From: Amblyomma americanum
Lineage: Eukaryota; Arthropoda; Arachnida; Ixodida; Ixodidae
NCBI RefSeq assembly: GCF_052857255.1
Contig: NC_135505.1
Location: 136,890,356 to 136,954,355 of the forward strand
Direction: 5' to 3'
Length of the DNA stretch: 64,000 nucleotides
Shown: in pieces, positions 17,788-36,057 of the stretch
Numbering within the stretch: position 1 is the stretch's first letter
How the letters are laid out: every line of letters begins with the position of its first letter
The notes under the pieces: model-generated
Told to the model about the DNA's origin: nothing
Seen by the model: the letters and a program-made list of their open reading frames with translations, nothing else
The model's database searches: none
Program-made: the position numbers and the translations under genes

Positions 17788-17942
17788 CGCCACCGAGAGC
17801 GTCCAGTACAGTGGCGGCGGAGGCGCTGGCGTGGCCAGGCGAAGCAAGAAAGCCTTCATCTTCGTCTGCCTGGCCTCCATCGTGGTCGTTGTGGTCCTCT
17901 TTCTGCTCGCCTTCCGGAACAGTGGCGGCACGCCAGTCTTGG
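17788..17942 (+). CDS. Exon: transmembrane anchor
   Basis: Acceptor GCGCAG| (phase 2) and donor G|GTACGC (phase 1). Encodes a Gly-rich lead (YSGGGGAG), the basic stop RRSKK, then about 21 hydrophobic residues beginning FIFVCLASIVVVVV and a short GG-rich exit. The positive side before the helix predicts N-in, C-out topology. The frame is open upstream to 17726 but without ATG. Confidence 0.78.
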
Positions 17943-35900: not shown

Positions 35901-36057
35901 AGACGATCCCGTCAGGAAGAGAGTTGTGAACGTAACCAGGAGAGCAGAGGTCTTGGATGGCTCGCACCACAATCAGAGTTCTGCTGTGCGGACAATCGAC
36001 AGTCATGCATCTCCATCTGTTCATCAACGAAAATCAATATCCCAGACTCACAGGTAG
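17788..36057 (+). CDS. Type II membrane protein with seven one-exon six-cysteine modules (5' end missing)
   Basis: I join eleven exons: 17788-17942, 18624-18749, 19635-19733, 20108-20224, 23507-23602, 24532-24627, 24709-24753, 30755-30844, 31782-31877, 32892-32966, 35423-36057. All ten internal junctions are phase 1, every intron is GT-AG, and the joined frame stays open for about 542 residues to TAG at 36055. Order: short cytoplasmic part, one membrane helix after RRSKK (so probably N-in), seven modules of C-x3-C-x5-C-x10-C-x4-C-x-C, two linkers, and a hydrophilic tail with several N-glycosylation sites. The six-Cys pattern with G-C before Cys 4 recalls one half of an antistasin-type domain, but I cannot assign the family. 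Six cysteines per module suggests three disulfides, so an extracellular or lumenal location. An AATAAA lies 29 bases after the stop. No in-frame ATG exists in the first exon; the first exon is upstream with a phase 2 donor. Function unknown. Confidence 0.8.
17957..18583 (-). mobile_element. RTE-like LINE 3' end interrupted by a MITE
   Basis: Same element as at 8799: (CAT)n at 17957-17973, then CCTCTCCCATGTCTCTCCAA and similar phrases to about 18101; it resumes at 18450 and ends about 18583 with ATAGGATGTCATTAAC. The gap is filled by a GGGTGC-type MITE. It begins 14 bases after the donor of the membrane-anchor exon, so the insertion nearly hit the splice site. Confidence 0.75.
18102..18449. 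mobile_element. GGGTGC-type foldback MITE, truncated copy
   Basis: Phrases AAGGGTGCAGAGATCAGCAC, CGAATGCATGTTGGAAGGGT and GGGTGTTCGTCTGGGG are shared with the fuller copy at 50134-50524. The left end is truncated compared with that copy. Nested in an RTE LINE inside the first recognised intron. Confidence 0.8.
18624..18749 (+). CDS. Exon: cysteine module 1
   Basis: Acceptor TTCGTGCAG|, donor CT|GTGAGC, 126 bases. A ten-residue lead (GVSTEQQAVM) precedes C-x3-C-x6-C-x10-C-x4-C-x-C. It is the only module with six residues between Cys 2 and 3, and its final Cys is followed by a codon starting with T instead of G. Confidence 0.85.
18750..19634 (+). other. Intron between modules 1 and 2
   Basis: About 0.9 kb, no recognised element. 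Confidence 0.5.
19635..19733 (+). CDS. Exon: cysteine module 2
   Basis: Acceptor TTTCGACAG|, donor TGTG|GTAAGC, 99 bases. Reads PENC-PKR-C-PHHQE-C and then VDARGCFKPNCEC, fitting C-x3-C-x5-C-x10-C-x4-C-x-C. The frame reported by a simple ORF scan here is a different one; the real frame is set by the phase 1 splice sites. Confidence 0.87.
20108..20224 (+). CDS. Exon: cysteine module 3
   Basis: Acceptor TTTTGCAG| after a good pyrimidine tract, donor TGTG|GTAAGC, 117 bases. A serine-rich lead (SISATSPKN) precedes the six-Cys pattern, which has the standard spacing and contains AVDAQGC. Only about 375 bases from module 2. Confidence 0.87.
20379..20788 (+). mobile_element. tRNA-derived SINE with very long (ATT)n tail
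   Basis: A-box-like GTGGCTCAGTGGTTAGGGCG, B-box GGTTCGAACCC, family core, and an (ATT)n tail over 20681-20790, about 36 repeats. Target duplication TTTTACCTATAG at 20367-20378 and 20789-20800, exact. It lies in the intron between modules 3 and 4. The long homopolymeric reading frames in the tail are not coding. Confidence 0.93.
20801..22509 (+). other. Intron sequence between SINE and LINE
   Basis: About 1.7 kb within the intron between modules 3 and 4; nothing recognised. Confidence 0.5.
22510..23325 (+). mobile_element. 5'-truncated LINE, reverse transcriptase C-terminal part
   Basis: A 209-codon frame ends the RT thumb region with typical phrases: YLGLCFDGDLSWNSHL, RKTIVHALVYSIMRYGL, and near the end YYVPAIFNKLP. 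A stop at 23139 is followed by a 3' UTR with an ATATTGTATTGTGTTGTATG-like tail. The catalytic RT palm is missing. The clade cannot be fixed by eye. It lies in the intron between modules 3 and 4. Confidence 0.82.
23507..23602 (+). CDS. Exon: cysteine module 4
   Basis: Acceptor CACCGCAG| after a long T-rich tract, donor TGCG|GTAAGG, 96 bases. Reads CLSPCPAGKRC then LDAKGCFKPGCTC, standard spacing. Closest to modules 6 and 7 in the CP-G-RC part. Confidence 0.9.
23603..24150 (+). other. Intron between modules 4 and 5, left part
   Basis: No recognised element before the two small foldback elements. Confidence 0.5.
24151..24272. mobile_element. CCAAGCAGC-type foldback MITE, copy 1
   Basis: Left end CCCAAGCAGCACAGGTAATC with CCTAATGTTGGAA, right end CCAATATTGGGCCGAA and a decayed TGCATGGG, forming imperfect inverted repeats of about 35 bp. 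Length about 120 bp. Confidence 0.65.
24363..24481. mobile_element. CCAAGCAGC-type foldback MITE, copy 2
   Basis: Left end CCCAAGCAGCAGAGGTAGTC, right end GACCTGTGCTGCTTGG, with ATATTGG repeats inward. Same family as the copy about 200 bp upstream. Ends about 50 bp before module 5. Confidence 0.72.
24532..24627 (+). CDS. Exon: cysteine module 5
   Basis: Acceptor ACGCCCAG|, donor TGCG|GTAAAA, 96 bases. Reads PDCAPRCPDGSDC then DLHGCYLAGCIC, standard spacing; the usual Phe after Cys 4 is Tyr. Confidence 0.9.
24709..24753 (+). CDS. Exon: 15-codon linker
   Basis: Acceptor CATTCCAG|, donor CCTT|GTAAGT, 45 bases, phase 1 to phase 1. Encodes RLKSFRPDNVTKKP with one N-glycosylation site (NVT) and no cysteine. 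Supported by good splice sites and phase only, so it may be optional. Confidence 0.65.
24754..25559 (+). other. Intron sequence before the large LINE
   Basis: Nothing recognised in this 0.8 kb. Confidence 0.45.
26810..27050 (+). mobile_element. tRNA-derived SINE, second family
   Basis: Head with GGTGGCTGAGTGGC (A-box) and GGGTTCGATCCC (B-box), then a core shared with the other SINEs (GTGTGCTGTGCGATGTCAGT) but a different end (GACGTTAAATCCCCCTAAAC). Exact 13-base target duplication CATCAGCCCCTGA at 26797-26809 and 27051-27063. Inserted in the LINE endonuclease region. Confidence 0.94.
27965..28208 (+). mobile_element. SINE fragment with inverted 5' end
   Basis: A 37-base inverted copy (27965-28001) precedes the forward SINE core starting about 28002, so that the two form a palindrome around AACGCTAAGGCGCC. 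The forward part runs to a CCAATTAT tail. AACACTC flanks it at 27958-27964 and 28209-28215. Inserted in the LINE reverse transcriptase region. Confidence 0.85.
29876..30754 (+). other. Intron sequence before module 6
   Basis: Nothing recognised. Confidence 0.5.
30755..30844 (+). CDS. Exon: cysteine module 6
   Basis: Acceptor TGTACGCAG|, donor TGTG|GTAAGC, 90 bases, the shortest module. Cys 1 is the second codon, so there is no lead. Reads CLSPCPLGKRC then DERGCFLRGCTC, with one NST glycosylation site between Cys 3 and 4. Confidence 0.9.
31191..31489. mobile_element. CTATAGCCGG-type foldback element, complete copy
   Basis: Arms of more than 100 bp: left begins CTATAGCCGGATACAATTC and includes CAATGGCGTCGGCCGATTCT; the right arm is its near complement ending CCCGACTATAG. 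Length 299 bp. A second copy with a nested insert lies at 49971-50657. It is in the intron between modules 6 and 7. Confidence 0.85.
31782..31877 (+). CDS. Exon: cysteine module 7
   Basis: Acceptor GCGCATTCAG|, donor TGCG|GTAAGT, 96 bases. Reads LDCPPRCPAGQRC then DFEGCFISGCAC, standard spacing. Confidence 0.9.
31878..32891 (+). other. Intron between module 7 and the Ser/Thr linker
   Basis: About 1 kb; nothing recognised beyond short A- and T-rich runs. Confidence 0.5.
32892..32966 (+). CDS. Exon: Ser/Thr-rich linker
   Basis: Acceptor TTTTGTCTAG|, donor GAAG|GTACAC, 75 bases, phase 1 to phase 1. Encodes about 25 residues rich in Ser and Thr (ending TSTTSE), without cysteine, likely a flexible or O-glycosylated stalk. 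Assigned from splice signals, phase and composition. Confidence 0.68.
33560..34153. repeat. Inverted repeat hosting a TATGGGG MITE
   Basis: Left arm 33560-33617 (GCCGACGTTTCGACAAGG onward) and right arm 34099-34153 (ending GTTGAAACGTTGGC) are near complements over about 55 bp, both containing the GGCAAAGCGTTCATCATTG phrase or its complement. The MITE at 33742-34089 lies between them. Confidence 0.75.
33742..34089. mobile_element. TATGGGGAAC MITE, copy 1
   Basis: About 348 bp, nearly identical to 47854-48201. Left end TATGGGGAACCTGCGCTG; the right end is mutated (GTTCTTCAT instead of GTTCCCCATA). It ends within the inverted repeat described above. No coding sequence. Confidence 0.87.
34154..34353 (+). 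mobile_element. Probable LINE 3' tail
   Basis: CTCTCTCAGAGGACCTTTAG, then GGTATTTAAGTAACTAAGTA and (GATAAATAAATAA) resemble the tail of the LINE ending at 29875. No coding part is visible. Confidence 0.45.
34354..35422 (+). other. Intron before the terminal exon
   Basis: About 1.1 kb; nothing recognised. Confidence 0.5.
35423..36057 (+). CDS. Terminal exon: hydrophilic glycosylation-rich tail
   Basis: Acceptor TGTATTTACAG|, phase 1, and TAG at 36055. Encodes about 210 residues without cysteine: a start DDSGILVVGDTYVVPDA, then a low-complexity hydrophilic stretch rich in S, T, N, D, E, H and R. N-glycosylation sequons: NAS, NES, NST, NVT, NQS. An acidic segment (EAGEDDEYSLLRELLPEDD) precedes a basic VRKR site that could be cleaved by a furin-like protease. 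No membrane segment. Confidence 0.83.

Follow-up and report, generated by a model that had tools for sequence, protein, structure and literature searches.

Gene Structure at the Locus

The window analyzed here is a stretch of 64,000 nucleotides from the hard tick Amblyomma americanum (contig C9, 152,647,248 bases, positions 136,890,356 to 136,954,355, in a 2.56 Gb assembly of 429 contigs). It contains on its plus strand a gene that encodes a hydrophobic helix, then seven six-cysteine modules carried by one exon each, and finally a long tail rich in N-glycosylation sequons. This order of parts was given in a preliminary description made from the sequence, and both the exon build and the relatives reported below bear it out. 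The same description called the gene undescribed, which does not hold in the sense of unannotated, since it is a real tick gene that is already catalogued at NCBI, without a function, as LOC144104518, “uncharacterized protein”; it is also a gene without a study, and our literature searches found no paper on either LOC144104518 or its six-cysteine module. The protein record P0001 is its isoform X2, and the pieces of this isoform matched the window at 100% exon by exon, except for the residues at exon joints (tblastn).

Twelve exons, flanked by AG and GT and lying between positions 17788 and 36057, splice into a frame of 574 residues that is open at its 5′ end. The signal-anchor exon (17788..17942, entry phase 2, exit phase 1), which is absent from isoform X2, is separated from the last exon by ten exons with lengths all divisible by three, which are joined in phase 1. 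Four of the module exons matched P0001 at 100%, namely those of module 1 (18624..18749, residues 1–31), module 2 (19635..19733, residues 33–64), module 4 (23507..23602, residues 104–135), and module 7 (31782..31877, residues 213–244), and those of module 3 (20108..20224), module 5 (24532..24627), and module 6 (30755..30844) were recognized by the spliced frame, the module pattern, and a P0001 match. A linker exon of 45 bases without cysteine (24709..24753) is placed between modules 5 and 6 and is present in P0001. The tail is encoded by a first exon (32892..32966, 100% to P0001 residues 245–269), an optional exon of 32 codons (34385..34480), and the last exon (35423..36057), of which positions 35422–36051 matched P0001 residues 270–479 at 100%; the stop codon TAG lies at 36055–36057, with an AATAAA just 3′ of it at 36086–36091.

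When ranked by a simple consensus, the 11 donors fell within the top 0.2–15.9% of all GTs in the window, and 11 of the 12 acceptors within the top 0.3–12.3% of all AGs. The weakest acceptor (top 37.4%) belongs to the optional tail exon, which is skipped in isoform X2 and has a faint counterpart in the Rhipicephalus relative P0006 (tblastn E 0.10). The joined frame of about 542 residues reported in the preliminary description therefore stands as the form lacking this exon, and not as the full length. Isoform X2 also differs at both ends: it starts inside the module 1 exon and thus has no anchor, and it quits the last exon after position 36053, two bases ahead of the stop codon, joining from the donor 36053|GT to an alternative last exon (37921..37957) that ends in TGA, with P0001 residues 480–491 matching window positions 37919–37954 at 100% (tblastn E 0.043). 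As this exon is positioned just upstream of a neighboring open frame (38027–38911), isoform X2 may in part reflect read-through.

The Six-Cysteine Module

Each of the seven modules follows the pattern C-x3-C-x5(6)-C-x10-C-x4-C-x-C, with the six-residue variant between Cys 2 and Cys 3 found in module 1, and they start on the plus strand at 18659, 19646, 20137, 23515, 24540, 30757, and 31790. Scanning all six frames of the window from end to end with somewhat looser spacing recovered these seven modules and no others. With stricter spacing, the window gave seven matches and the 60 kb upstream gave none; none of 100 mononucleotide shuffles gave any match, which rules out a chance origin of the modules. 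In a profile built from 42 of 45 distinct family modules, all six cysteines and one glycine were invariant, and one aspartate was nearly so. The modules are separated by spacers of 4, 10, 3, 3, 16, and 3 residues, and AlphaFold2 scored them at approximately 71–86 per ten-residue block. Along the array, the residue preceding Cys 2 is P, R, S, P, R, P, and R in turn. In a module tree (32 rows, 29 columns), modules 2, 5, and 7 split from the rest with a support of only 75/75, and most forks were unresolved. From this residue and this split, one might guess at a two-module ancestral unit.

Anchor and Tail

The anchor exon encodes ATESVQYSGGGG..., then the basic stretch ARRSKK, and then a hydrophobic stretch of approximately 21 residues, and it showed a 60% match to the N-terminus of the relative P0002. 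A motif adjoining the helix, SV[EQ]YSGGGG, which would be cytoplasmic, is conserved. The 15 residues before the helix carry a net charge of +4, and the 15 residues after it carry +1, which, according to the positive-inside rule, would place the modules outside the cell. Beyond the array, the tail of the joined frame comprises 268 residues without a single cysteine, of which 23% are Ser or Thr and 15% are Asp or Glu, and it contains five N-glycosylation sequons; residues 251–491 scored under 50 in AlphaFold2. In a comparison with the Dermacentor protein P0004, 144 of 210 residues were identical in the array (69%), versus 60 of 228 in the tail (26%), a score within the range of 30 shuffles. Thus, the array is conserved and the tail has been free to change.

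Relatives in Hard Ticks

A database of 5.8 billion protein sequences was searched three times, one search scoring only the 7,994 candidates that had most words in common, and the searches returned 6, 10, and 9 proteins, 12 of them distinct. Eleven of these are all from hard ticks of the genera Amblyomma, Dermacentor, Rhipicephalus, and Hyalomma, a restriction that rests on queries from the window gene and from genes of the type found on contig C10 (see below), rather than on contig C2 sequence. The records P0002 to P0012 include Dermacentor albipictus, D. andersoni, Rhipicephalus appendiculatus, R. sanguineus, R. microplus, and Hyalomma asiaticum. The twelfth protein, P0003, carries the anchor, seven modules, and the tail in one frame of 639 codons on a contig of 2,042 bases, which is too short for introns, so that the parts are joined in it without introns. 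Separate genes or unspliced exons, the case that the preliminary description had named as fatal to its gene model, did not appear and can be ruled out: P0001 combines all seven modules of the window with the tail, and P0003 joins anchor, seven modules, and tail.

The window gene belongs to the family of LOC144104518 and these proteins both by its sequence identity to the NCBI protein and by its anchor exon followed by one-module exons. The relatives P0002 to P0012 share the same modules, and 5 of 11 share the same anchor, with a hydrophobic helix; they are annotated as uncharacterized or hypothetical, and the label “dentin sialophosphoprotein-like” given to P0007 fits only the composition of its tail. 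By the module pattern, the relatives range from seven modules down to none. P0007 has modules 1, 2, 6, and 7 in frame, and P0009 has modules 1 and 2 in frame, forms that would suit exon skipping.

Further Copies in the A. americanum Genome

Searches of the tick's own genome with the relatives' proteins as queries revealed two more loci of the same build and two partial copies. On C10, an anchor match and modules 1–7 in order were found on the minus strand (119.877–119.891 Mb). On C2 (143.432–143.463 Mb), an anchor exon of the same phases precedes six diverged module exons in order. The partial copies, one on C10 (119.402–119.405 Mb), with modules like 5, 6, and 7 and the middle one lacking two cysteines, and one on C1 (453.844–453.846 Mb), with modules like 5 and 6 and the first lacking one cysteine, are probably decaying duplicates. 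Weak matches were also observed on C3 and C7, along with weak anchor-like matches at further loci, some of which were scanned, and more distant copies may exist.

Between the window gene and its full C10 relative, modules 1–6 are 53, 76, 48, 52, 59, and 76% identical, respectively, with 0.28 nonsynonymous substitutions per nonsynonymous site (dN) and 1.59 synonymous substitutions per synonymous site (dS); the frame has been under purifying selection. In addition, each of the 7 window modules and of the 6 C10 modules compared was most similar, among the modules of other genes, to the one in its own position, a correspondence that the C2 modules do not clearly follow.

Comparison with Known Families

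The six-cysteine module matches no known protein family, in agreement with the preliminary description, which could not name one. When the 42 modules were scanned singly against Pfam at E values up to 10, no match was obtained except one to PBAN at 0.23. Sequence searches against solved structures in the Protein Data Bank gave a best E value of 0.99 in one case and none up to 10 in another, and fold searches with the seven-module model and with a single module gave nothing usable, very short domains being hard for such programs. Small disulfide domains in series are a feature of surface or secreted proteins built from TIL, EGF, or TNF-receptor modules, and the tick array resembles these and other tandem disulfide modules in that respect.

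Within ticks, a conserved six-cysteine set is described for the salivary 8.9 kDa family (PMC3091647), but that family has a C-terminal cysteine doublet, which the modules analyzed here lack.

The preliminary description also compared the pattern to half of an antistasin-type inhibitor domain. The antistasin domain has ten cysteines, given in one source as C-X4-C-X5-C-X4,6-C-X-C-X4,5-C-X3,4-C-X9,10-C-X2,3-C-X (PMC12838937), and its second half is paired 5-8, 6-9, and 7-10 in the account of another (PMC6265900). The likeness to this second half stands as a likeness of pattern: both have six cysteines ending in C-x-C, with 10 residues between the third and fourth in the tick modules and 9–10 in antistasin (PMC12838937). 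Membership, however, is ruled out, as the tick modules have six cysteines rather than ten, without the first half, and three of the five spacings (x3, x5-6, and x4, versus x4-5, x3-4, and x2-3 in antistasin) are outside the published ranges. The antistasin family (PF02822) was not among the Pfam matches of the joined protein or of the 42 modules, with the limit that HMMER filters can drop weak matches, and a whole-genome search for PF02822 was uninformative, as its controls gave no signal anywhere.

Proposed Explanation and Alternatives

We propose, with a probability of roughly one half, that hard ticks make from LOC144104518 a type II surface glycoprotein whose disordered tail, bearing glycans, is held out by an array of disulfide-stiffened modules; exon use would set the length of the array, and the job of the protein would be structural or adhesive. 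A short cytoplasmic N-terminus and one helix would hold the protein in the membrane with its C-terminus outside. There, the seven compact modules, mostly three to four residues apart, would form a stiff, disulfide-bonded array, serving as both stalk and binding part, and beyond it the disordered, cysteine-free tail, rich in Ser/Thr, Asp/Glu, and sequons, would be held away from the cell. Since every module occupies a single exon with phase 1 at both ends, skipping or multiplying modules keeps the frame intact, and this may account for differences in array length and make-up as well as for anchorless forms. On the surface of tick cells, the protein would have a structural or adhesive job, for which the modules would provide binding or spacing, and we rank this role first, above a receptor or an inhibitor. 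The sequence itself shows the exon build, the open frame, the helix with positive charges on its N-terminal side, the conserved array with its freely changing tail, and the gene family, whereas the disulfides, the topology in the cell, the glycans, the rod shape, the use of exon skipping, and the function are inferred.

A broader and more tentative proposal is that the module represents a separate kind of disulfide domain, one that originated in hard ticks or occurs only in them, and that it serves as an exchangeable one-exon block. The arrays might have been copied to at least three loci with their order kept, exons might be skipped in pairs (a proline-type module and then an arginine-type module), and the products might be surface rods for tick-specific recognition or adhesion. 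An undescribed domain repeated within conserved surface proteins of hard ticks would open a way into the biology of the tick cell surface and offer a candidate exposed antigen. The in-frame build of one exon per module at several loci is a clean case for the rise and spread of a new small disulfide domain by exon duplication.

Several observations weigh against the surface glycoprotein proposal. The first coding exon, expected to be of the type with which five relatives begin (MSSSQ), was not found in the 77.8 kb searched: the relatives' N-termini gave a best score of 7 in the window, below most of 20 shuffles (6–20), and a best score of 17, with no shuffle control, in a further 60 kb upstream. 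Isoform X2, the sole protein record encountered for A. americanum, has no anchor, and six of the 11 relatives have no helix, so that forms that are secreted, or that start differently, may exist. The AlphaFold2 model of the array had an overall predicted template modeling score (pTM) of 0.23, and a straight rod is thus not established. The fewer-module forms may be faults of gene prediction and not products of splicing. Finally, in the C10 relative the reading frame of module 7 is interrupted by a stop codon after Cys 3 (C10:119875501-119879300), and not every member need therefore be functional; a decaying gene or the use of another end could underlie this stop.

The stronger of the alternatives, although we consider it rather unlikely, is a receptor or recognition protein, either immune or for a ligand of the tick's own, in which different modules bind different partners. 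The same-position matching between the window and C10 arrays indicates that the modules are not interchangeable in function, and the conserved motif adjoining the helix would suit a receptor as well, but the cytoplasmic part is short and has no recognised signaling domain.

Blood feeders make many inhibitors, and the modules might form a tethered array of protease inhibitors with an antistasin-like mechanism, the Cys 1-Cys 2 loop facing the protease. This is possible in view of the likeness to the antistasin second half noted above, but is disfavored by the residues of the loop and has a lower probability than a receptor. The four-cysteine first half is absent, the spacings deviate, and the single modules found no inhibitor family in Pfam. 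The known P1 residue for trypsin-type targets is Arg or Lys, with Met in guamerin. If P1 follows Cys 1, the seven modules would present V, P, T, L, A, L, and P, two of them with an adjoining Pro, and none of these would then be a fitting P1. The loop is, moreover, conserved between genera and not varied.

A secreted, cysteine-rich, mucin-like protein, as suggested by P0001, P0004, and other models without the helix, is improbable. The anchorless models also lack a signal peptide-like helix (mean hydropathy over 19 residues peaks at 0.87 and 0.97), so that the proteins as drawn would have no entry to the secretory pathway, and they look 5′-truncated; in addition, anchor exons recur beside the modules on C9, C10, and C2.

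Surroundings in the Window

Besides the surface glycoprotein candidate, the window contains several other features. The intron before module 6 (24754–30754) harbors a non-long terminal repeat (non-LTR)-like retroelement with broken frames and a reverse transcriptase match at 28164–28883 (E 1.2e-21), and a further retroelement-like frame was recognized by eye in the intron before module 4 (22498–23139). An RNase H match on the minus strand (43060–44310, E 1.1e-09) is probably another retroelement piece. A tandem array of a 53-base unit, with approximately 14 copies and 79% matches, is located upstream of the anchor exon at 14372–15108. Two protein-coding candidates were found on the minus strand, a 768-codon open frame (stop to stop) at 5253–7559 with leucine-rich repeats (Pfam LRR_6, E 2.6e-17) and a 413-codon frame at 53030–54271 matching the Pfam chemosensory receptor family 7tm_7 (E 2.3e-06; 27.6 bits versus a cut-off of 26.6). 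Downstream of the gene, on the plus strand, two acidic open frames (38027–38911 and 42102–42806) are related to each other (32% over 245 columns, E 1e-21), and both have a KRRLTRS.RDA.RKRSKR stretch and a hydrophobic C-terminus, with no Pfam match.

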